Shown here: piece after piece, positions 1,636-12,715 of the stretch
Layout of the letters: each line of letters opens with the position of its first letter
Position numbering within the stretch: the first letter of the stretch is position 1
Source: Chloroflexota bacterium
Lineage (GTDB): Bacteria; Chloroflexota; Dormibacteria; Dormibacterales; Dormibacteraceae
Assembly: GCA_005881025.1 (NCBI GenBank)
Contig: VBFO01000045.1
Span: 1 to 48,899, forward strand
Direction: 5' to 3'
Length of the DNA stretch: 48,899 bases
Translations under genes and position numbers: made by a program
Notes under the pieces: model-generated
The model's input: the letters and a program-made list of their open reading frames with translations, nothing else
Database searches by the model: none
What the model was told of the DNA's origin: nothing

Positions 1636-1676
1636 CAAGCGGCCTACTTCAAGGCCCCGCCGTTATCGTGGTCGCG

Positions 1677-4600
1677 ATGTTTTCAAGGGGCACACGTCAG
1701 CCGCGCGGGCTCGCCCTCGTGAACTCGCTCGCGCTGGTGACGATAGTGAGCGCCGTGGCCCTGCGGCTGGCGGAGGCCGGAATGCCCCCGGTCGTGGTGC
1801 GCGCGGAGGCTGTCGTTCTGGCCGCCGGCATCGTCTATGGGGCGATCGCGGTGTGGATTCGTTCGACGGCGCTCGCCTCCAGCACGCCGGTCCAGCTCCT
1901 GCTGATGTCCACCAACGTGATCCTGGCCGTGGCCGCGCTGGGGGTGGCCGGGCCGTGGCTCGGCAGCGACCTGCCGCCGCTGGCGGTGGGCATCTTCGCA
2001 GCCATGCTCCTCTACTTCGACATGGGCCACAACGCCCGCCACTTCCGGTACGTGCTGGCGGTGGCGGCGGTCGGGCTCGCGGTCCTGTGGGCCGACGCGG
2101 TCGTCAACCTCGGTGTCGCGGTCACCACTGTCGCCACGTGGACCCTGGTGCTCCTCGGCCTCATGCTCCTTGCCTACGTGACGCATCACGTGATCGACCG
2201 CAGCCTGGTCAGGCAGGCCGGTCGCCAGGATTCGCTGCTGTCCGCCCTCAGCGACATCGGCGAAGGGCTGGTGATCACCGAGGAAGGTAGGTTCGTCACC
2301 GGGAACGAGGCCTACATCAACTTGACGGGCTACACAGCTGACGAGCTGCTGGCCCTGCCATCACTCATCGATCTGGCGCCGGCCGAGGAGCGCAAGATCC
2401 TGGCCGAGCAGCTGGCGACCCGCCTCGGCGGTGGGGAGGTGCCGGTGCACTACGAGTCCGCGCTCATCACCAAGGAAGGCAAGCGCCGCCAGGTCGAGAC
2501 GTCGATCCGGCCGCTGACCGCCGAAGGGCCGCGCCGGTTGCTTGCGGTCGTGCGGGATGTGACCGACAGGCACCGCTCGGAGGCGGCAGAGCGAGAGAGT
2601 GAGACCCGCTTCCGCACTCTGTTTGCGCAGTCTCAGGCGGGCATGGCTTTCGCAGACCTCAACGGGCGCCTGACCTCGACCAACGAGGCATTTCGCCAGC
2701 TGGTCGGCTACACCGACGCCGAGCTCCAGGGTGTCTCGGTCCTTGAGCTGACTCATCCAGAAGACCTGCCTCTCAGCGAGGAGGTGCTGCGCCTGATGCT
2801 TGCCGGCGAAACCCCGGGATACCGCATCGACAAGCGCTATGTGCGCAAGGATGGTCAGTCAGTGTGGGTCGACGTCGCCGCTCGCATGGTGCGCGACCCG
2901 AAGGGCAAGGCGCTGTACATCCAGACCGTCGCCATCGACATCCGCGACCGGATGCGCGGCGAGGTGCTGCAGTCAGCTCGCTTCGCAGTCACGCAGGCGC
3001 TGGTCACCTCACCCGGTTGGGACCAGGCGGCCCCTCACGTGCTCGAAGGGCTTTGTCGAGCGCTCGACTGGGAGCTCGGCGAGTACTGGGAGGTGGATGC
3101 GAATCGAGAATCGATGCACTTCTCGACCGCATGGAAACGACCGGGGCGGGACACGACCGCGTACGAAGCCACGGCGGCACAGCTCACCTACCGCCGCGGT
3201 GAAGGCCTTCCAGGTCGGGTCTGGGAATCCGGCCGGCCGGTTTCAGTCGAGGACCTTGCGAAGGATCAGTCCCCTCGCGCGGCCGCTGCGCTGGCGGTAG
3301 GTCTTCACGGCCTGGCGGCCTTTCCGGTACGGAGCGGCCGGCGTGTGGTCGGTGTCATCGCGCTTGCGACCTGGGCGCCACGCCAGCTCGATGAAGCACT
3401 GCTCGCAGTGATGAACGACATCGGCACACAGATCGGCGAGTTCGTGGAGCGTAAGCGCGCCGAGGTGGCGCTGCAGGAGAGCGAGAAGCGGATGCGATCG
3501 GTGCTGGACAACGTGTCCGACGGCCTGGCGACGCTCGACCAGACCGGCGTCATCGAAGCGGTCAACCCCGCGGTCACGCGTCTTTTCGGCTACGAGGAGA
3601 AAGAGCTGGTCGGCCAGAAGATCGAGGTCCTGGTCGCGACCACGCATCGCGGCTCATTCATGAGCTACGTGGAACGCCGGCTCACTCTCGAGCTGCCCGC
3701 CAGCGGTGCTCTCGAAACCATGGGCAAGCGCAAGAACGCGAGCCTGTTCCCCCTGGAGTTCCTGGTCAGCTCGATGCAGGTCGGGCCACGTCACCTTTTC
3801 ATCGCGACGCTGCGTGACATCTCGGAGCGAAAGGCGCACACAGACGCGCTCGAGTACCAGGCCCTACACGACGCGCTGACCGGCCTCCCCAATCGGACGC
3901 TGTTCGGTGACCGCCTGCGCCAGGCGCTGCTGGCCGCGCGCCGCAACCAGACGATGTTCGGCGTCCTGCTGCTCGATCTGGATCGCTTCAAGGACATCAA
4001 TGACGCTCTCGGCCACGACCGCGGTGACAACCTCCTGCAGGAGGTGGCGGCGAGGCTCAAGGGTGTCCTGCGAGCCACTGACACCATCGCCCGGCTCGGG
4101 GGTGACGAGTTTGCCGTCGTCAGCATCGATGCCAGGCACCCCGACAACGTCATCGCCACAGCACGCAAGATCCTGGCTTCGCTGGAAGGTCCTTTCACGA
4201 TCGCCGACCAGCAGGTCGAGACCGGTGCATCGATTGGGATCGCGATGTATCCGATCCATGGAGACGACCCCGGCACTCTGCTGCGGCGCGCCGACGTTGC
4301 CATGTACGTCGCCAAGCGTGCAGGTGGGGGGTTCGCGGTCTATTCGCCCGAGCATGAAGGGCAGACGTTGCGCCACTCGGGCCTGGCAGGCGATCTCCGG
4401 CGCTCGATCGCGCAGGGCGAGCTGGTCCTTCACTACCAACCGATAGTGCTGCTCCCGGCCCGCACCACCTACGCCGTCGAGGCACTGGTGCGGTGGAATC
4501 ACCCCCGCGAGGGTCTGCTCCCGCCGGAACGGTTCATCGGCCTGGCAGAGGAGACCAACATGATCCGGCCGCTAACCGAGTGGGTGCTCGACAACGCGCT

Positions 4601-5237
4601 CAACCGCCTGTGCAGGTGGATCCAATCGGGGCTCGAGCTCTCGGTCGCTGTCAACGTCTCGCCGCGCCTGCTCGAGGACCACTCGATCGTCGAGGACGTC
4701 GCCAAGGCCCTCGCCACCTCCAACGCGGATCCTGCTCGGCTCACGCTGGAGATCACGGAGGGAGTCGCCACCTCGGCGGCTGCCGGTAAGGCGATACACA
4801 GGCTGGCCGAGATGGGTGTGCGCCTGTCGCTGGACGACTTTGGTACCGGTTACTCGTCGCTCGTCTTCCTGAAGCGCCTGCCGATCCACGAGCTCAAGAT
4901 CGACCGCTCATTCATCAAGCAAGTGGCTGTCGATCCTGACGCGTCGGCCATCGTCCGGACGGCGATCGGGGTCGGGCACAACCTCGGATTGCGGGTGATC
5001 GGGGAAGGGGTCGAGGAACGGGAGGCGGAGGCGGTCCTGATCGAGGCCGGCTGCGACGCCGTCCAGGGCTACCTGATCGGCAAGCCGGTACCGGAAGACG
5101 AGATGACCGATCTGCTGGAGTCGGGCCGCGAGCTCAGCGAGTCGCCCCCCGGCCCTCCCCCCGATGGGGAGGGAGGGCTCAAGGGAGGGGTGAAGACAAC
5201 AACACCGGCGCTAAGTGACAGTTTAGCTGACGCTTAA
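1677..5237 (+). CDS. Membrane-anchored PAS/PAS/GAF/PAS/GGDEF/EAL cyclic-di-GMP signalling protein
   Basis: About 1186 residues. The first ~175 form about six hydrophobic segments, a membrane sensor or anchor of unknown type. They are followed by PAS (~190-300), PAS (~310-430), GAF (~440-595), PAS (~600-720), GGDEF (~730-890) and EAL (~905-1155) domains. Both output motifs are intact: RLGGDEF in the diguanylate cyclase and EALVRW plus DDFGTGYSSL in the phosphodiesterase. It could therefore make and break cyclic-di-GMP, although one domain often dominates in such hybrids. I chose ATG 1677. GTG 1668 is also in frame, but neither has a ribosome site, and TATCGT at 1664-1669 sits 7 bases before the ATG like a -10 box of a leaderless message. 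The last ~35 residues are disordered and include a G/C-rich palindrome-encoded stretch. Confidence 0.9.
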   Translation: MFSRGTRQPRGLALVNSLALVTIVSAVALRLAEAGMPPVVVRAEAVVLAAGIVYGAIAVWIRSTALASSTPVQLLLMSTNVILAVAALGVAGPWLGSDLPPLAVGIFAAMLLYFDMGHNARHFRYVLAVAAVGLAVLWADAVVNLGVAVTTVATWTLVLLGLMLLAYVTHHVIDRSLVRQAGRQDSLLSALSDIGEGLVITEEGRFVTGNEAYINLTGYTADELLALPSLIDLAPAEERKILAEQLATRLGGGEVPVHYESALITKEGKRRQVETSIRPLTAEGPRRLLAVVRDVTDRHRSEAAERESETRFRTLFAQSQAGMAFADLNGRLTSTNEAFRQLVGYTDAELQGVSVLELTHPEDLPLSEEVLRLMLAGETPGYRIDKRYVRKDGQSVWVDVAARMVRDPKGKALYIQTVAIDIRDRMRGEVLQSARFAVTQALVTSPGWDQAAPHVLEGLCRALDWELGEYWEVDANRESMHFSTAWKRPGRDTTAYEATAAQLTYRRGEGLPGRVWESGRPVSVEDLAKDQSPRAAAALAVGLHGLAAFPVRSGRRVVGVIALATWAPRQLDEALLAVMNDIGTQIGEFVERKRAEVALQESEKRMRSVLDNVSDGLATLDQTGVIEAVNPAVTRLFGYEEKELVGQKIEVLVATTHRGSFMSYVERRLTLELPASGALETMGKRKNASLFPLEFLVSSMQVGPRHLFIATLRDISERKAHTDALEYQALHDALTGLPNRTLFGDRLRQALLAARRNQTMFGVLLLDLDRFKDINDALGHDRGDNLLQEVAARLKGVLRATDTIARLGGDEFAVVSIDARHPDNVIATARKILASLEGPFTIADQQVETGASIGIAMYPIHGDDPGTLLRRADVAMYVAKRAGGGFAVYSPEHEGQTLRHSGLAGDLRRSIAQGELVLHYQPIVLLPARTTYAVEALVRWNHPREGLLPPERFIGLAEETNMIRPLTEWVLDNALNRLCRWIQSGLELSVAVNVSPRLLEDHSIVEDVAKALATSNADPARLTLEITEGVATSAAAGKAIHRLAEMGVRLSLDDFGTGYSSLVFLKRLPIHELKIDRSFIKQVAVDPDASAIVRTAIGVGHNLGLRVIGEGVEEREAEAVLIEAGCDAVQGYLIGKPVPEDEMTDLLESGRELSESPPGPPPDGEGGLKGGVKTTTPALSDSLADA
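5153..5173. repeat. G/C-rich inverted repeat inside the 3' end of the GGDEF/EAL gene
   Basis: CCCTCCCC (5153-5160) and GGGGAGGG (5166-5173) are exact inverted repeats separated by 5 bases, with further CCCCCC and GGGAGGGG runs on either side (5145-5190). The stretch encodes a Pro/Gly-rich peptide (PPGPPPDGEGG) just before the stop codon, unlike the rest of the protein. This resembles short palindromic repeats that insert in or near gene ends in other genomes. No second copy was noticed in the window. Confidence 0.5.
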
Positions 5238-5656: not shown

Positions 5657-8224
5657 ATGGTTCGTTTCGGCACGGCGTTGGGCCTCGCGGGAGGCACTGT
5701 CCTCGCGGCTTTCGGAGTCGCGGTGGCGGTCCTGGCCCCATTTGGCAGCACCGCGAGCCTGGCCGCCGGCCTGGGCCTGGTCGCGATCGGGACGGGCCTC
5801 CTGGCTGTTCAGGTGTGGCGCCTACGCACCGGCGCGGGTGGCGCCGGGGCTCTCTGGTCGTCGATCCTCGACGCGATCCTGCTGGTCGCCGCGGTCATGG
5901 CGATCCTGCCCGCGGTCGCGGTTGTGCGCGGCTTTGTCGAGCTGTTTGCGCACACCCACGTTCACGACAGTCGCGAGGCAGTCGCCTATGGATTTGCGTT
6001 CGCGGGCCTATTGCTGGGCGGCCTCTTCTTCACCTACGCGGTGAAGTACTACCTGGGCACTGTGCTCGTGCTGCTCACGGCGCTGCTGCCGACGGGCCGG
6101 CGGAACGGAAACTCCCATGACCGCATCGGCAACGGCAGGCAGCATGCGTCAGGCCTGAGCGGCATCACGCGTGGGCGTGCCACCGGGAACGGCAACGGCT
6201 ACGACGCTGCTGGAAACGGAAATGGAAACGGCTACCACATCGACCTCGGCTATCAGCCGTTCGTGTCGGTGCACGTCGCCGCCTACAACGAAAAGCGTGT
6301 CATCGAGCGTCTCCTGACTTCGCTCGACCAGCTCGACTACCCGGCCTACGAGGTGGTCGTGGTCGACGACTCGAACGATGAATCGGTCCAGATCCTCCAG
6401 GAGTGGCTGGGCCGGCCGAAGTTCAAGCTCCTGCACCGCACCAGCCGCCAGGGCTTCAAGGGCGGTGCGCTGAACGAGGCGCTGAAGGTGATGGATCCGC
6501 GCACCGAGTACGTCGTCGTCTTTGACGCCGACTCGATGCCATTCCCGGACTCGATCGAGCGGTTCCTGCCGTATTTCTACGAACCTGTCGAGTCAAACCA
6601 GGAGGGGCAGCGCCCGATTCGGCGTGAAGATGTCGCCGCGGTTCAGAGCTACCAGTGGCACGTTTTGAACAAGTCGGAGAGCTGGCTTACGGAGGCGGTG
6701 CGCGCCGAGTACGCCGGCAGCTACATGGTCGAGCGGCCGTTCCAGGACGCGATCGGGTCTCTGAAGATGGTGGCCGGTACCGCCTACATGATCCGCGCCG
6801 ACCTGCTGCGCGAGGTCGGATGGGGCACCAGCCTCACCGAGGACTGGGAGCTGACGTTGAAGCTTTACGCGCGCGGCTACAAGGTGGCGTACACGCCGTG
6901 GGCGGAAACGCCCGCCGAGTGCGTCGCCACATTCTCGCGGCTCGCCCGCCAGCGCATGCGGTGGGCCGAGGGCCATACGCACAACGTCCGCAAGTACTTC
7001 TGGCCGATCATGCTGTCGCCACTCGTCGCACCGTTGGAGAAGCTCGAGTTTCTTTTCGACGCGACGTACTACCTGCAGGCGGCGCTCTTCGTCGCCGGAT
7101 CCATCAGCTGGCTGCTGAGCGAGCTCGTATTCCAGACGCATGTGCCCGGCTGGACAGCAGTGCTGGGCTGGTCGCTTCTTTTCTCGAACATTTTTGCACT
7201 GCCGCTGATGAATCTCGGAGGCCTGATCCTCGAGGAGGCTCCGGGCCGCGACCTGCAGGGAGTGCTTGGTGCGCTTGTGCTTTCCTTCGCGCTGGTGCCG
7301 TTCCAGGGGTGGGCGGCGCTGAAGGGCCTCATTAGAAAGGACGAGGGACCGTGGTTCCGCACCCCGAAGACCGGTCACATCACGGATGAGGTTCATCACC
7401 TGCGCAGGCTGCGGATGCTTCGGCGCTGGCTCCTCGGCGCCCGCGAGCCGAGGCTGCGACCACCATCGGCCCACCCTGCACCGCCGGCTCCCAACTGGAT
7501 CATCACCCCGCGGAACCGGCGCATCGGTTGGATCGCAGTCGGAGGACTCGCGATCGCGATCGCGGCGCTGGCGTGGGGATCATCGAGGGCCCCGATCAGC
7601 CAGGCCGCGGGGAACCCGCTCTACCTCCATGGCACCGGGGTCGCGCCGGCATGCGTGCCGGCGACGATGGATCAGTCGATCGGAGTCCGAGCCACACCGT
7701 GCACCGTCCAGTCGGCTTCGGGCGGCCTGACCACGCTGTTCGCGTTTTCGAACCTGCCGGCCCAGACGATCTCGGCCGGCGTCTGGTCTTTCACGATGTA
7801 CTGGAACGGCGGGTCGGGCAACACGCTAGACGCGGTCACGGTCAGCGCGGGCGTCACCGCGCTTCCAACCTGCGTTGGTTTCACAGCGACGATTCCCAAC
7901 GGCGGCACGACGTGGACGACCACCTATGGAGGCAGCGGAATCAACACGACGAGCCCGCTGACCGTGAACACCAGCGCCGCCCAGGCGGCGCTGACGATTC
8001 CCGCCGGAGGCTCCCTGTGTCTTCAGGTCGTGCTCACGCACACCTCAGGCGGGAAGCCGTCGATGGTCTATGACGGACTGGCAGGTGCAGCCGACACGCG
8101 AGTCACCCCACCCAGCTCGGTGGTCCCCGAGGCGCTGCTGCCGCTCGCGGGGCTCGCGATCGCGATTCCGCTGATCACGGGACGCCGGCGGCTGATCCGG
8201 CTTCTGCAGGTTGTGAGGCGATGA
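5657..8224 (+). CDS. Membrane GT2 glycosyltransferase fused to an exosortase-substrate-like C-terminal domain
   Basis: An 855-residue protein. Residues 1-145 hold about four membrane segments. A low-complexity Asn/Gly linker (~175-193) leads to a cellulose-synthase-like GT2 domain (~200-450). That domain has VVVVDDS (D237/D238), FDADS (D290/D292), TED (394-396) and QRMRW (432-436), the D,D,D,QxxRW set of processive-type transferases. More membrane helices follow (~465-560). After another helix (~623-640) comes a ~170-residue Thr/Ser/Gly-rich, probably beta-rich outer domain with four Cys (666, 682, 739, 788). The extreme C-terminus is VPE (823-825), a hydrophobic helix (826-841) and RRR (843-845), the three-part layout of a PEP-CTERM sorting signal. 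The next gene, overlapping by ATGA, is an exosortase-family protein. There is no PilZ domain, so it is not a standard BcsA. ATG 5657 has a strong ribosome site. The polymer made is unknown. Confidence 0.85.
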   Translation: MVRFGTALGLAGGTVLAAFGVAVAVLAPFGSTASLAAGLGLVAIGTGLLAVQVWRLRTGAGGAGALWSSILDAILLVAAVMAILPAVAVVRGFVELFAHTHVHDSREAVAYGFAFAGLLLGGLFFTYAVKYYLGTVLVLLTALLPTGRRNGNSHDRIGNGRQHASGLSGITRGRATGNGNGYDAAGNGNGNGYHIDLGYQPFVSVHVAAYNEKRVIERLLTSLDQLDYPAYEVVVVDDSNDESVQILQEWLGRPKFKLLHRTSRQGFKGGALNEALKVMDPRTEYVVVFDADSMPFPDSIERFLPYFYEPVESNQEGQRPIRREDVAAVQSYQWHVLNKSESWLTEAVRAEYAGSYMVERPFQDAIGSLKMVAGTAYMIRADLLREVGWGTSLTEDWELTLKLYARGYKVAYTPWAETPAECVATFSRLARQRMRWAEGHTHNVRKYFWPIMLSPLVAPLEKLEFLFDATYYLQAALFVAGSISWLLSELVFQTHVPGWTAVLGWSLLFSNIFALPLMNLGGLILEEAPGRDLQGVLGALVLSFALVPFQGWAALKGLIRKDEGPWFRTPKTGHITDEVHHLRRLRMLRRWLLGAREPRLRPPSAHPAPPAPNWIITPRNRRIGWIAVGGLAIAIAALAWGSSRAPISQAAGNPLYLHGTGVAPACVPATMDQSIGVRATPCTVQSASGGLTTLFAFSNLPAQTISAGVWSFTMYWNGGSGNTLDAVTVSAGVTALPTCVGFTATIPNGGTTWTTTYGGSGINTTSPLTVNTSAAQAALTIPAGGSLCLQVVLTHTSGGKPSMVYDGLAGAADTRVTPPSSVVPEALLPLAGLAIAIPLITGRRRLIRLLQVVRR

Positions 8225-8817
8225 GGCGGCCAGAGCGCGACGCGCTCAACCTGACGCTGGTCGCGGCGTCGTGTGCGCTGCTGATGGTGCTGCCCCTCGT
8301 TACGACCTTTGACGATCTCCTCAGCGGCTGGGCCCTGCAGCTGGGCGCAAACAACCCGCTGCAGTCGATCGTGCCGGTGGAGTCGCGCATGATCGTCGGC
8401 CTGCTGAGCGCCCTGGGCATTCATTCGGCGGCGGCGGGCAGCCACATGGTCGTCTGGGACCGGGCGGGATCGATGCACGTGCTCCTGATCTCGTGGAACT
8501 GCATCGGCTGGCAGAGCCTGATCCTTCTCCTGGTGAGCTTCATCTCCGGCTTGCGCGGCGGCCATCCCCTGGAGTCTCGAGTGCAGGTGGTGATCATCGG
8601 AGTCGCGGGCACGATGCTCTTGAACCTGCTGCGAGTGGCCGCGGTCGCGGCGCTCGCGGCCACGTGGGGACAGACGCCCGCCATCCTGTTCCACGACTAC
8701 GGCGGCACCGTGCTGGTGGTCGGCTGGCTGTTCGGGTTCTGGATGTTCGTTCAGCGATGGATCCTGCCGGCCGACCGCTCGGAAGAGCTCGAGACGGCGC
8801 CGGCGTGCATTCAGTAG
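8221..8817 (+). CDS. Exosortase/archaeosortase-family transmembrane transpeptidase
   Basis: A 198-residue multi-pass membrane protein. It carries the three conserved residues of the exosortase/archaeosortase superfamily in the right order: Cys94 in SWNCIGWQS, Arg138 in NLLRVA and His158 in FHDYGGT, each at a helix end as in known members. Family members cleave a C-terminal VPEP- or PGF-like signal on secreted proteins and are thought to join the product to a surface glycan or lipid. ATG 8221 overlaps the stop of the GT2 gene by 4 bases (ATGA), so translation is coupled to a protein ending in just such a signal. Family knowledge: XrtG-type exosortases of Gram-positives also pair with GT2 enzymes. 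Whether this one belongs to that branch needs a profile search. Confidence 0.8.
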   Translation: MRRPERDALNLTLVAASCALLMVLPLVTTFDDLLSGWALQLGANNPLQSIVPVESRMIVGLLSALGIHSAAAGSHMVVWDRAGSMHVLLISWNCIGWQSLILLLVSFISGLRGGHPLESRVQVVIIGVAGTMLLNLLRVAAVAALAATWGQTPAILFHDYGGTVLVVGWLFGFWMFVQRWILPADRSEELETAPACIQ

Positions 8818-8825
8818 GTCCCAAC

Positions 8826-11069
8826 GTGCCCGCGTCTTCGCGCAACCGCTGGGTCCGGCTCGGACTGCAGACTGCCTTCGGCCTGGCCCTGCTGTGGCTG
8901 TGGACGCGCACTGTTTCGCTGCCGGAGGTTTTCGCCCACATGCGGGTCGGGAGCTGGTGGCCGATCCCGTTGATGATCCTTTTCTTCCTGATCACCAGCG
9001 TCATCAGGGCTCGCCGGTGGTTGCTGCTTCTGCGCACCCTCGCGCCGGTGGGGATGGTGCGAGCGTTCGCCATGAACGCGACGGGTGGGCTGCTCAACTA
9101 CGTGCTGCCCATCCGTGCCGGCGACGTCGCACGTGCATGGTGGCTGTGGCGTCGACACCGCATACCCGGTGGCTCCGCGCTGGCGACGATCGTGATCGAC
9201 AAGGCGTGCGACCTGGCCGGGGTCGCCGTCGTGCTGGCGGTGATGGAGACCGCAGCCATCGCCGGCCTCGTATCCGCACCGCGGGGCCTGCTCGGCGCGG
9301 TTGCGCTGGCGGTGGGTCTGCTCGGCGCGGTGCTGGGAACGGCCCTGCTGGGCCCGCGCATCGCGCGCTCGGGGTTGGCGCGGCGAGTGCTGCCGGCGCG
9401 CCTCGCGTCAGCGCTTGCGGGCCAGGCCTTCGCGTTCAGGGCTGGAGCCCGAGGACTGTGGACGCCCGGCCTCGCCGCCCGGCTTGCCGGATGGACCGGA
9501 CTGGCGATGGTGATCGACGCCTACAACCTGAACCTGCTCCTGGTTGCGGTCGGTGCGAACGTGCCGGTGCTCAAGGCGATGGCTGCTTACCCGGCGCTGC
9601 TGCTGAGCTTTGCGGTCCCCGCAGGACCCGGCTATCTCGGCAACCTCGAGGTGGCGGGCTCGCTCATCCTCGGTGGTGGGCTTGGGCTGGCGCCGGCGGT
9701 CGCGGCCGGGGCGATCGTGCTGTATCACGCGATCACCGCCGGCTATGCGCTCGCGCTTGGCCTCATCGGTTTTCTGCTCGTCGGCGGGCGCCGACGCGTG
9801 CGCGCCGGTGGCCCGCGGCGGATCGCAGTCTTTCATTGCGGGTTCACGTACTCAGGCGGTGGGGAGCGCATAGTCATAGAGGAGGTGCTGGGCCTGCGGC
9901 GGCGGGGCTTCCAGGTCGAGTGCTACGCGCCGACAGTGGACGGATCGCGCTGCTACCCGGACCTGCTGGGCGAGGTTGGCGTGCGCACATTCCTTCCGCA
10001 GCTACCGCGATGGTTCCCATTCCGTGAGGCCATTCAGATGGCGGCGACGTCATTGCTCATGCCGCTGTACGCGTGGCGCTTCCGCGACGTAGACGCGATC
10101 GTCGGATGCAATCAGCCAAGCGCATGGATCGCCTGGTGGGCGGCGCGACTCATCGATGTCCCATATGTGGTCTACCTCAACCAGCCGAATCGCCTCGTTT
10201 ATCCCCGCAACATCGACCGTGAGACTGGCTGGGTGGCCAACGCCGACTACAGATTGCTCGCGGAGATCGTGCTGAGAGCGACCAGGTTCGTGGCGTGGGC
10301 CGATCGCAGGTCGGTCCAGGAGGCGGACCAGCTGCTGGTCAACGGCGACTACATCGGCGACATCATCCGCGGCATCTACCGGCGTGAGGCCATCGACTGT
10401 CCGGCGGGATGTCACGTCGCCACATCGGGTTTTCCGCTACCGGTCGAGGCACGGTTCGGCGGGGGGCTCACCATCAACGGGTACCCGATCCGCAGGCCTT
10501 ATGTCCTGCTGACCAACCGGCACTATCCGCAGAAGCGGTTTGACCTGGCGATCCGGGCGATGGCGGAGGTGCGCGCCGTGCACCCGCGGGCCCAGCTGAT
10601 CATTCCGGGACCCGCGACTGCGCACACGTCGGTTTTGAAGGAGCTCGTCGCGGAGCTTGGCCTCACTGACGGCGTCCTGTTCCTGGGACCCATCAAAGAA
10701 GAGGAGCTGCAGCGCCTTTACGAAGGCGCCGCTGTGTATGTGTACCCTGCTCCCGAAGAGGATTTCGGCATGGGGGTGATCGAGTCCATGGCCAAGGGCG
10801 TACCGGTCGTGGCCTGGGATCAGGCCGGGCCGACCGTCACTGTGGCCCCTGGTACCGGGTATCGAGCCGACCCGCTTCAGGTTGGCGATTACGCGCGCGG
10901 CATCATCTCGCTCCTCGACGACCGCAAGGAAAACCAGGCCACCGGCGAGCGCGCCTTCGAGTGGGCACGGCGGTTCGACTGGGAGCGGCATCTCGACGTG
11001 CTCGAGCGATGTGTGCTCGAGGTGGCGCGCTCGCACGAGCAGGTGGCGGCGGAAGCGGCCACGGCTTGA
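8826..11069 (+). CDS. Fusion of a UPF0104/LPG-synthase-like membrane domain and a GT4 glycosyltransferase
   Basis: About 747 residues from GTG 8826 (GTG 8805 is also in frame; both lie at the exosortase stop). Residues 1-320 form 8 or so membrane segments of the AglD/MprF-N-terminal type (UPF0104), with the typical LPIRAGDVAR and PAGPGYLGNLE loops. This family is linked to flippases or lipid-linked glycan processing. Residues ~330-735 are a GT-B fold GT4 transferase: GGGERIVIEE near its start, a sugar-nucleotide region with NRHYPQKRFDLAI, and PAPEEDFGMGVIESMAKG with the donor-binding acidic residues. It probably adds a sugar to a lipid-linked acceptor on the inner face and may help move it across the membrane. 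The two parts are usually separate proteins. The end overlaps the next gene by TTGA. Confidence 0.8.
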   Translation: MPASSRNRWVRLGLQTAFGLALLWLWTRTVSLPEVFAHMRVGSWWPIPLMILFFLITSVIRARRWLLLLRTLAPVGMVRAFAMNATGGLLNYVLPIRAGDVARAWWLWRRHRIPGGSALATIVIDKACDLAGVAVVLAVMETAAIAGLVSAPRGLLGAVALAVGLLGAVLGTALLGPRIARSGLARRVLPARLASALAGQAFAFRAGARGLWTPGLAARLAGWTGLAMVIDAYNLNLLLVAVGANVPVLKAMAAYPALLLSFAVPAGPGYLGNLEVAGSLILGGGLGLAPAVAAGAIVLYHAITAGYALALGLIGFLLVGGRRRVRAGGPRRIAVFHCGFTYSGGGERIVIEEVLGLRRRGFQVECYAPTVDGSRCYPDLLGEVGVRTFLPQLPRWFPFREAIQMAATSLLMPLYAWRFRDVDAIVGCNQPSAWIAWWAARLIDVPYVVYLNQPNRLVYPRNIDRETGWVANADYRLLAEIVLRATRFVAWADRRSVQEADQLLVNGDYIGDIIRGIYRREAIDCPAGCHVATSGFPLPVEARFGGGLTINGYPIRRPYVLLTNRHYPQKRFDLAIRAMAEVRAVHPRAQLIIPGPATAHTSVLKELVAELGLTDGVLFLGPIKEEELQRLYEGAAVYVYPAPEEDFGMGVIESMAKGVPVVAWDQAGPTVTVAPGTGYRADPLQVGDYARGIISLLDDRKENQATGERAFEWARRFDWERHLDVLERCVLEVARSHEQVAAEAATA

Positions 11070-12715
11070 GGCTTCTCCCTCGGATCCTGGCCGACGAGGA
11101 CGAGCTCGACCGGCAGCCCGAAACCACTGACGCCAACCGTGATCAGGCCCGTTCGCCGGCGTTTCCACCCGCACCGGCGCGTGTCTGGATCGCGTTGGTG
11201 GCAGCTGGCGCGCTGATACCTCGCCTGGTCTACCTGTTCCTGTTCACCGACCCTGAGAACGCCGGTCACGGGTTCACCGACGCATACCACCACTGGCAGA
11301 TCGCCTACCTGACGAAGGAGATCGGTCTTTCCCACGGACCGCGACTGTGGGACCTGCGGGGCTGGGAGTACTACTGGGGCCTTCTCCATCCCGCGCTGAT
11401 GAACGTGCTGTTCTTCGTGACAGGTTCCGCCGACATCGTTCAGGCCCGGCTCCTGAGCGCGGCTTTCGGAACCGTTGTAGTGGTGTTGATCTTCACGCTG
11501 TGCCATCGCTACTGGGGCTACTCGGTCGCGATTCCGTCCGCGGTCTTCGCTGCACTGGCCCCGGCAAATGTCTTCAATGACACGGCCGGCCTTGCGGAGC
11601 CCATCGCCGTCGCGCTCGTCTTGCTAGGGATCTGGCTGGCACCGTCAAGGGGCTTCTGGGGCGGCGTGGCCTGGGGCCTCGCAGCGATGGCCCGAGCTGA
11701 AGCGTGGCTCTTCGGCGCGGGCATGGTCGTCGCCTGGCTGCTCGGCAGCAATCGGATGCGCGGTCGGTGGTGGTTGGTAGGAGGCTGGATCCTCGCAATG
11801 GGGCTGTACGCGAAATTCCTCCTCGACCAGACCGGGAATCTGATCTACCCGGTGTACTGGAATTTTCAGTTCATATTCTTCGGCGCCATCGACCCAACGC
11901 CCGTGATCAGCGCCACGGATCGATCACTTGCCTACCCATTGCTTGGTGCGACCTTCGGTTCGCTTCTGGCCCTTGCATGGGCGCTCTGGAAGCGGCCCAC
12001 CTCATATCTCTTGCTGGTCTACGGATTCGGATATTCGGCGTACAGCTTCGCTACGTATTTGAAGGTCGATGCGTGGAAAGAACGGCGCTTTGAGCTCCCG
12101 CTCGATTTCGCGGCCATCCTTGCATGCGTATTTCTGTTCAAGGTAGTGCCGTCGGCTTGGCCCGGACTGGCGCGACTCTCGCCGGTGGTTGCCGCCCTGG
12201 CCCTGATCGGGATCCAGGTTTTCTGGATTCCGATTCAGACCGCGTACGCCGCCACCGAGCCTGGTTTTCGCGCCCAGGTGCAATCGGGCCGAGACGTAGG
12301 CGCCGTCTACAACGACCCTGCATATCGGGGGGGCGTGATCGGGGTGCCTGGTGACAATCCGACTCTGATCTACACGATGATTCGCTACGGCGGCGTGCCG
12401 GGTGATCGCGTGACGAGCGAGTTCTACGATCCTTTCTATTACCTGCCCGCCGGTTATCACTATCCAGACCATCGGGATGTGGCCGGCCCGCTGCTCCAGT
12501 GCTGGATGTCGAGCACCCACATGCGGTTGCTGCTGATGCCTGCCGCCAGCGCTTTCGACCACTCGGTTCCGGACTATCAGGCCTTCATGGCCGACCATCC
12601 GGACTGGTTTGTCGATACACAGGCCCGCCTTGGCGACGGCATGAGCCTCTTTGCCGTGCACGTCCCACCTCTGAGCGGCAGCGAATGCGCGCAGGCGGCT
12701 CGGAATGCCCCGTGA
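11066..12715 (+). CDS. GT-C type membrane glycosyltransferase-like protein
   Basis: About 549 residues from TTG 11066, which overlaps the previous stop by 4 bases (TTGA). No better in-frame start lies between the previous stop and the first membrane segment. There are roughly ten hydrophobic segments from residue ~45 to ~410, then a ~140-residue soluble outer domain. The first outer loop carries FTDAYHHWQIA, with the acidic-aromatic character of the catalytic loop in GT-C transferases (GT39/ArnT/dolichyl-phosphate-mannose-dependent types). Such enzymes use lipid-linked sugars and act outside the membrane, which suits its place after a flippase-like fusion. The donor and acceptor cannot be read from sequence, and the exact GT family is uncertain. 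Confidence 0.7.
   Translation: MRLLPRILADEDELDRQPETTDANRDQARSPAFPPAPARVWIALVAAGALIPRLVYLFLFTDPENAGHGFTDAYHHWQIAYLTKEIGLSHGPRLWDLRGWEYYWGLLHPALMNVLFFVTGSADIVQARLLSAAFGTVVVVLIFTLCHRYWGYSVAIPSAVFAALAPANVFNDTAGLAEPIAVALVLLGIWLAPSRGFWGGVAWGLAAMARAEAWLFGAGMVVAWLLGSNRMRGRWWLVGGWILAMGLYAKFLLDQTGNLIYPVYWNFQFIFFGAIDPTPVISATDRSLAYPLLGATFGSLLALAWALWKRPTSYLLLVYGFGYSAYSFATYLKVDAWKERRFELPLDFAAILACVFLFKVVPSAWPGLARLSPVVAALALIGIQVFWIPIQTAYAATEPGFRAQVQSGRDVGAVYNDPAYRGGVIGVPGDNPTLIYTMIRYGGVPGDRVTSEFYDPFYYLPAGYHYPDHRDVAGPLLQCWMSSTHMRLLLMPAASAFDHSVPDYQAFMADHPDWFVDTQARLGDGMSLFAVHVPPLSGSECAQAARNAP

Follow-up and report, generated by a model that had tools for sequence, protein, structure and literature searches.

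The PEP-CTERM/EpsH system, described for bacteria with an outer membrane, has a median of eight substrates per genome (PMC1569441). In the XrtG system of Firmicutes, XrtG is accompanied by a Firmicu-CTERM substrate and by two glycosyltransferases, including TIGR03111 (PMC12854382). Cleavage of archaeosortase A (ArtA) substrates depends on HvPssA and HvPssD, which are predicted to make the proposed lipid acceptor and whose genes can adjoin artA, and one of these substrates, HVO_0405, is a gene fusion, a cleaved two-domain protein (PMC7157517). Here we describe a locus in a 48,899-nucleotide stretch of DNA (the window) from a Chloroflexota bacterium of the family Dormibacteraceae (GenBank assembly GCA_005881025.1, contig VBFO01000045.1), which sits on contig C134 of a 2.6-Mb draft genome (G000). 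In this locus a membrane glycosyltransferase of family 2 (GT2) is fused to what is predicted to be its own exosortase substrate, and the gene overlaps that of an exosortase. A preliminary description, made from the sequence without database searches, had pointed out this arrangement and knew of no described example; no GT2 fused with an exosortase substrate was found in the openly accessible papers searched.

The sequences compared establish the order of the parts in the chain, which holds in two phyla with outer regions that are interchangeable, and the presence of a dedicated exosortase gene. That the GT2 is fused to its own exosortase-type substrate tail next to an exosortase, as first proposed from the window, is supported by this two-phylum conservation, by co-loss of the two genes and by their 1:1 pairing in a closed genome. 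We favor the interpretation that the fusion gene encodes a cargo polyprotein, in which a synthase and the precursor of a secreted cargo are made as one chain and served by a dedicated exosortase (probability about 0.62, a figure that excludes the acceptor).

The first part of this chain would be a membrane GT2 like BcsA and hyaluronan synthase. Pfam Glyco_tranf_2_3 matches residues 201-439 (E 1e-27), and alignment of 26 homologues revealed that the catalytic residues D237/D238, D290/D292 (DxD) and D396 are invariant and that QRMRW at 432-436 (QxxRW) is at least nearly so, which confirms the motif set originally read from the sequence. The best structural matches of the modelled GT2 part were BcsA and hyaluronan synthase. 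With this fold and its DD, DxD, D and QxxRW residues the GT2 part falls in the BcsA/hyaluronan synthase/NodC-like class, and it is predicted to be a processive-type synthase. It shares with BcsA and hyaluronan synthase the GT2 fold, QxxRW and a gating-loop-like WFRTPKTG motif, which is followed by a basic loop that leads to the hydrophobic segment 620-640; unlike the fusion, members of that family are without exported cargo or sorting tail, and the fusion has no PilZ domain. The XrtP-associated glycosyltransferase NF053846 is likewise a GT2 named for an exosortase neighbor, but the fusion GT2 scores only 51.7 bits on this model against a cut-off of 520, and the 440-residue profile is too short for the outer domain.

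The product of the downstream gene is, by profile and alignment, a member of the exosortase/archaeosortase superfamily with a predicted transpeptidase function. It scores 37.2 bits on NCBIfam TIGR04178 (cut-off 23) and 26.9 bits on Pfam PF09721 (EpsH; cut-off 25.7), and the Cys94, Arg138 and His158 that had been assigned to exosortase positions are invariant in 49/49 relatives. An NCBIfam profile search that included the named types, archaeosortase C among them, reached no named type (best scores: thaumarchaeosortase, 33.2 of 250 bits; XrtX, 33.1 of 170), and the XrtG model gave no match. The XrtG system nevertheless resembles this locus in that an exosortase is co-encoded with dedicated glycosyltransferases and one substrate, whereas the substrate is a separate gene there and the C-terminal half of the GT2 here; on TIGR03111 the fusion GT2 reaches 34.9 bits, well short of the cut-off of 364. 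The earlier remark that XrtG enzymes have no obvious substrate is out of date, because the Firmicu-CTERM protein is now listed in that system (PMC12854382). Co-encoding of exosortase, GT2 and substrate is therefore known from XrtG, and what is new here is the fusion of the substrate to the GT2 and its unusual breadth. On a separate 4-kb contig of the draft genome (G000:C166, L106:613-3536), PrsK (TIGR02916, 437 bits) comes after a canonical exosortase of the EpsH type (TIGR02602, 144 bits). This could be a genuine system of the classic PEP-CTERM kind, or the contig could be mis-binned.

The tail of the window fusion reads SSVVPEALLPLAGLAIAIPLITGRRRLIRLLQVVRR (also written VPEALLPLAGLAIAIPLITGRRRLIRLLQVVRR) and conforms to the signature [VIT]PE-x12-P-(R/K)n. 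E825 is invariant in 26/26 homologues, including a paralogue with VDE, and P824 is nearly invariant, in agreement with the VPE-helix-RRR ending described initially. Of the four Cys residues noted in the outer domain, two are conserved (C739, C788). A proline lies exactly 13 residues past the Glu in 56/64 tails from Chloroflexota and Patescibacteria, although the outer regions are unrelated. The tail is present in 54/57 unbroken fusion frames, and every fusion with a readable end has it, each such end consisting of [VITL]P[ED] or VDE, then a helix, then K/R, the tripartite arrangement of PEP-CTERM-like signals. The three tail-less frames, and L037, which was excluded from the 57, are explained by frameshifts or N-gaps, and in these the other frame still ends in PE-helix-KR beside the exosortase. 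A few motifs first picked by the automated count (LGD, SND, AEE) were mispicked; the true motif is IPE in L044 and VPE in L052. In the closed 819-kb genome of a member of Woesebacteria (G327), a survey of all open reading frames of at least 80 aa found a single exosortase and a single tail of this kind, that of the fusion; the two other motif matches belong to a polytopic membrane protein and an LPDTG end. Within about 1 Mb of locus DNA, other PE tails occurred only in pieces of fusions, in frames open at a contig end, or in one unfused cargo (L175). On this evidence the tail is a VPE-type signal, predicted to form its own class. Like the PEP-CTERM/EpsH (exosortase A type) system, the locus combines what may be a signal peptide, a PE-helix-basic tail, a Cys/Arg/His exosortase and an exopolysaccharide neighborhood, but it differs in having one fused tail in the closed genome, no match to PEP-CTERM models and the proline at E+13.

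A scan that took one genome per species found 72 loci. The fusion recurs in about 30 metagenome-assembled genomes (MAGs) of Dormibacterota, in another Chloroflexota lineage (G169, G204, G325) and in many Patescibacteria. Every untruncated copy in Dormibacterota retains GT2, outer domain and tail, and every readable exosortase start beside an untruncated fusion has its start codon at the ATGA overlap. In Patescibacteria (Microgenomates and neighbors) the same GT2 core is found, with about 40-54% identity over matched segments, the fusions carry outer regions of about 150 to 2650 residues and end in [VIT]PE-helix-(K/R), and the exosortase very often begins at the stop codon. The GT2 core and the tail are constant across fusions. 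The outer regions, from about 170 to more than 2600 residues long, show no relationship from one lineage to another (a beta-sandwich in the window, MG2 domains in L051, glycine-rich sequence in Woesebacteria). The N-terminal module likewise varies: four helices in the window, helix-turn-helix in Patescibacteria and in L105, a paralogue from the window's own genome, and in G169 a receiver domain of the response-regulator type together with MshEN. The fusions of the other Chloroflexota lineage (L174:4230-7688, minus strand; L175:2437-7065) start with these receiver and MshEN domains, which suggests control of the synthase by a signal or by cyclic di-GMP (c-di-GMP). In the Patescibacteria loci L043, L044, L046, L049 and L051, an N-terminal helix-turn-helix stands on a membrane enzyme with a giant, predictedly exported C-terminus, and a Chisholmbacteria genome (G330, L052) carries several fusion copies, with eight matches to the GT2 core, in which several cargos are possibly delivered by paralogous synthases.

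Co-occurrence was followed in 61 genomes of Dormibacteria or nearer, which are related and so do not amount to 61 independent trials. The GT2 is present in 29 and this exosortase type in 32; 28 have both and 28 neither. Of the five genomes in which only one of the two was recorded, three are explained by the end of a contig (G015, and also G009 and G019, where the contig begins inside the fusion), and the remaining two, G003 and G035, have no GT2 and keep only decayed exosortase fragments without Cys94. Judged by gene content, GT2 and exosortase are lost as a pair in Dormibacteria. Loss of the tail with retention of the exosortase was not seen: the apparent cases L037, L059, L064 and L052 are frameshifts or N-gaps, and G003 and G035 hold only exosortase fragments. 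About 30 independent MAGs have this fusion with its ATGA overlap, which rules out two genes joined by an assembly or frameshift artefact. Together with the exosortase profile matches, these results leave none of the three outcomes that the preliminary description had named as fatal to its proposal. Neither a plasmid match nor, in a narrow test for the exosortase core motif in its conserved DNA form, a viral-contig match was found.

Some observations weigh against the cargo polyprotein and are taken here with the alternatives to which they belong. Curated PEP-CTERM models (TIGR02595/PF07589), which the preliminary description had proposed to run, give no match to the tail; for this reason we call it PEP-CTERM-like rather than a PEP-CTERM member. 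In the L105 paralogue an Asp replaces the Pro found in the others (VDE for VPE). Distances between GT2 proteins and between exosortases do not correlate in Patescibacteria (r 0.11, n=10); their correlation in Chloroflexota (r 0.90, n=29), by contrast, speaks for the cargo polyprotein. The failure of PEP-CTERM models to call the tail, and the frequent presence of exosortases near exopolysaccharide genes (PMC1569441), would fit a synthase into which an outer domain has been inserted and whose final transmembrane helix, an ordinary one, happens to follow VPE; the exosortase would then act on other proteins, or the linkage would reflect no more than a shared glycan locus. We consider this explanation quite improbable, because the closed G327 genome is without any other candidate tail, the PE plus E+13 proline pattern is fixed, GT2 and exosortase are lost together, and the same tail ends unfused proteins that have no GT2. 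The L105 paralogue itself (G000:C139, L105:3467-6672) has an HTH_17 N-terminus, GT2, outer domain, the tail VDERSLPLAGVAVMIPLL and an overlapping exosortase, which no NCBIfam model reaches at 1e-3.

The helix between the GT2 and the outer domain resembles a signal peptide placed inside the chain and followed by an AxA site. In 68 copies, the segment before the outer domain has a basic n-region, with a mean net charge of +3.4, and a core of high hydrophobicity. Within Dormibacterota A651 never varies and A650 hardly does. A strict AxA follows the h-region within 25 aa in 34/68 copies (50%) versus 14% of control stretches, but the looser motif [AVSTG]xA, found in 96% of copies, also occurs in 73% of controls, and a signal-peptidase cut is therefore a suggestion. 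The segment can equally be read as a plain transmembrane helix. In BcsA the gating loop is followed by two further helices, to which the pair seen here could correspond as ordinary TM7/TM8, and the full-chain AlphaFold2 (AF2) model, poor overall (mean predicted local distance difference test score, pLDDT, 62), is weak beyond the GT2 fold and the outer domain. Without an internal cut, helix 620-640 would keep the outer domain on the GT2, and the exosortase would trim the tail and lipidate or cap the C-terminus, thereby maturing or activating the synthase, a role with which the regulatory look of the MshEN/receiver and helix-turn-helix N-termini and the presence of strict AxA in only half of the copies agree. 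This reading seems unlikely to us, as outer regions that vary so widely in length and are unrelated between lineages suit a cargo better than a regulator of the synthase, and unfused cargos exist. One of these, L158:949-1764 (G060), is 271 aa long: the RRLAW...APIAEAAG segment stands close to its N-terminus, and it shares the outer domain and the tail; the other, L175:7065-9095 (G169), has a signal segment and a PE tail and overlaps the stop of a fused copy by ATGA. Outer domain and tail can therefore exist as a separate, predicted exported protein.

For the cargo polyprotein, then, the second part of the chain would be a complete secreted exosortase substrate, made of internal signal peptide, outer domain and [VIT]PE-x12-P-(R/K)n tail. 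Segment 620-640 would export the outer domain, which a cut at AxA by signal peptidase I may free from the synthase; the neighboring exosortase would then cut at VPE through Cys94, with formation of an acyl-enzyme as proposed for archaeosortase A. Both steps are likely. The preliminary description suggested that cleavage by the exosortase could release the outer domain. A cut at VPE is still predicted, but alone it would not release the domain, because helix 620-640 ties it to the GT2, and the second cut by signal peptidase I, if it acts, was absent from that account. In a third step an amine or hydroxyl group close by would accept the new C-terminus of the outer domain, so that, for each synthase made, one surface protein would be delivered and anchored where the acceptor is produced.

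The identity of that acceptor is a guess, the most plausible candidate being a glycan or glycolipid that the linked GT2 makes or displays. The argument is by analogy with archaeosortase A, which depends on enzymes for its acceptor lipid and has HVO_0405 as a fusion substrate: in the present chain the fused enzyme might itself supply the acceptor, in this case a glycan or glycolipid. Both systems have Cys-dependent tail cleavage (predicted here) tied to acceptor-making enzymes, and both have a fusion substrate; they differ in that with ArtA the enzymes that make the acceptor are separate from the substrates and the acceptor is a lipid rather than a glycosyltransferase product. That the acceptor is the product of the fused GT2 is accordingly a tentative proposal, to which we give well under even odds. 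The same system offers an equally tentative alternative, in which the cargo goes to an ordinary phospholipid and the GT2 acts on an unrelated target, for example by glycosylating the cargo, whose outer regions are Thr/Ser-rich, or by making capsule. ArtA cleavage requires HvPssA and HvPssD, predicted to make archaetidylethanolamine (PMC7157517), which favors a phospholipid; yet ArtA, too, has its acceptor-synthesis genes clustered with the sortase, and the enzyme clustered and fused here is a GT2, not a lipid enzyme.

The outer domain was modelled very well by AF2 (mean pLDDT 88, about 95 in the core), and its fold is similar to the jelly-roll domain of CocE/NonD hydrolases (template modelling score about 0.5). 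The jelly roll frequently serves in binding, but likeness to it shows no function, and by sequence a PDB profile search gave only weak matches to viral fibre and envelope proteins (E 0.003 or worse). Coordinates of the features are collected in Table 1.

Table 1. Features of the fusion gene and its overlapping exosortase gene, in window coordinates.
Feature	Position	Strand	Basis
Fusion gene: membrane GT2 synthase, signal-peptide-like segment, outer domain and VPE tail	5657..8224	+	855 aa
N-terminal membrane part, four helices, residues 2-143	5660..6085	+	AF2 secondary structure
Cytosolic GT2 catalytic domain, residues 200-440	6254..6976	+	Pfam match, invariant residues, BcsA/hyaluronan synthase fold match
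WFRTPKTG motif, residues 566-573	7352..7375	+	Homologue alignment; BcsA FxVTxK gating-loop position by analogy
Internal signal-peptide-like segment, residues 620-651: NRR n-region, hydrophobic 623-640, S648-Q-A650/A651	7514..7609	+	Alignment, composition, unfused L158
Outer domain, beta-sandwich, residues 652-820, four Cys	7610..8116	+	AF2 pLDDT ~95, jelly-roll matches, alignment
Sorting tail, residues 823-855: V823-P-E825, helix with P838 (E+13), RRR	8123..8221	+	Alignments, tail counts
Exosortase, 198 aa, ATGA overlap with fusion gene	8221..8817	+	TIGR04178, PF09721, triad
Exosortase Cys94, Arg138, His158	8500-8502, 8632-8634, 8692-8694	+	Alignment

Directly upstream of the fusion gene, the window encodes a large PAS/GAF/GGDEF/EAL protein (1668-5237), and G003 has a PAS/GGDEF protein resembling it close to its decayed locus (L170). 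Within the glycan locus, positions 10961-12715 encode a 584-aa membrane protein with no Pfam family and weak similarity to archaeal STT3 (14.6 bits), a homologue of which is also found downstream in G009 (L167).

In Dormibacterota of soil and in Patescibacteria, the fusion and its adjoining exosortase suggest a coupling of surface-protein anchoring to sugar synthesis. At its fullest, which we put forward as a doubtful extension, the locus would be a single-chain surface assembly line in Chloroflexota and Patescibacteria: synthase, cargo and tail would be co-translated, a dedicated exosortase would join the C-terminus of the cargo to the glycan of the same chain, and cargos (jelly roll, MG2, glycine-rich, some of them thousands of residues long) would be swapped freely under varied N-terminal regulators (helix-turn-helix, receiver plus c-di-GMP-type MshEN). 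Why exosortases adjoin exopolysaccharide genes, and to what most of them attach their substrates, has been an open question since PEP-CTERM was described. Because one chain links a glycan synthase to a substrate, with a single exosortase beside it, the acceptor question here becomes a one-substrate experiment. The tail provides a searchable signature, [VIT]PE-x12-P-basic, which is missed by the curated models applied here, and the locus as a whole is predicted to deliver surface proteins in two groups of which few members are in culture.

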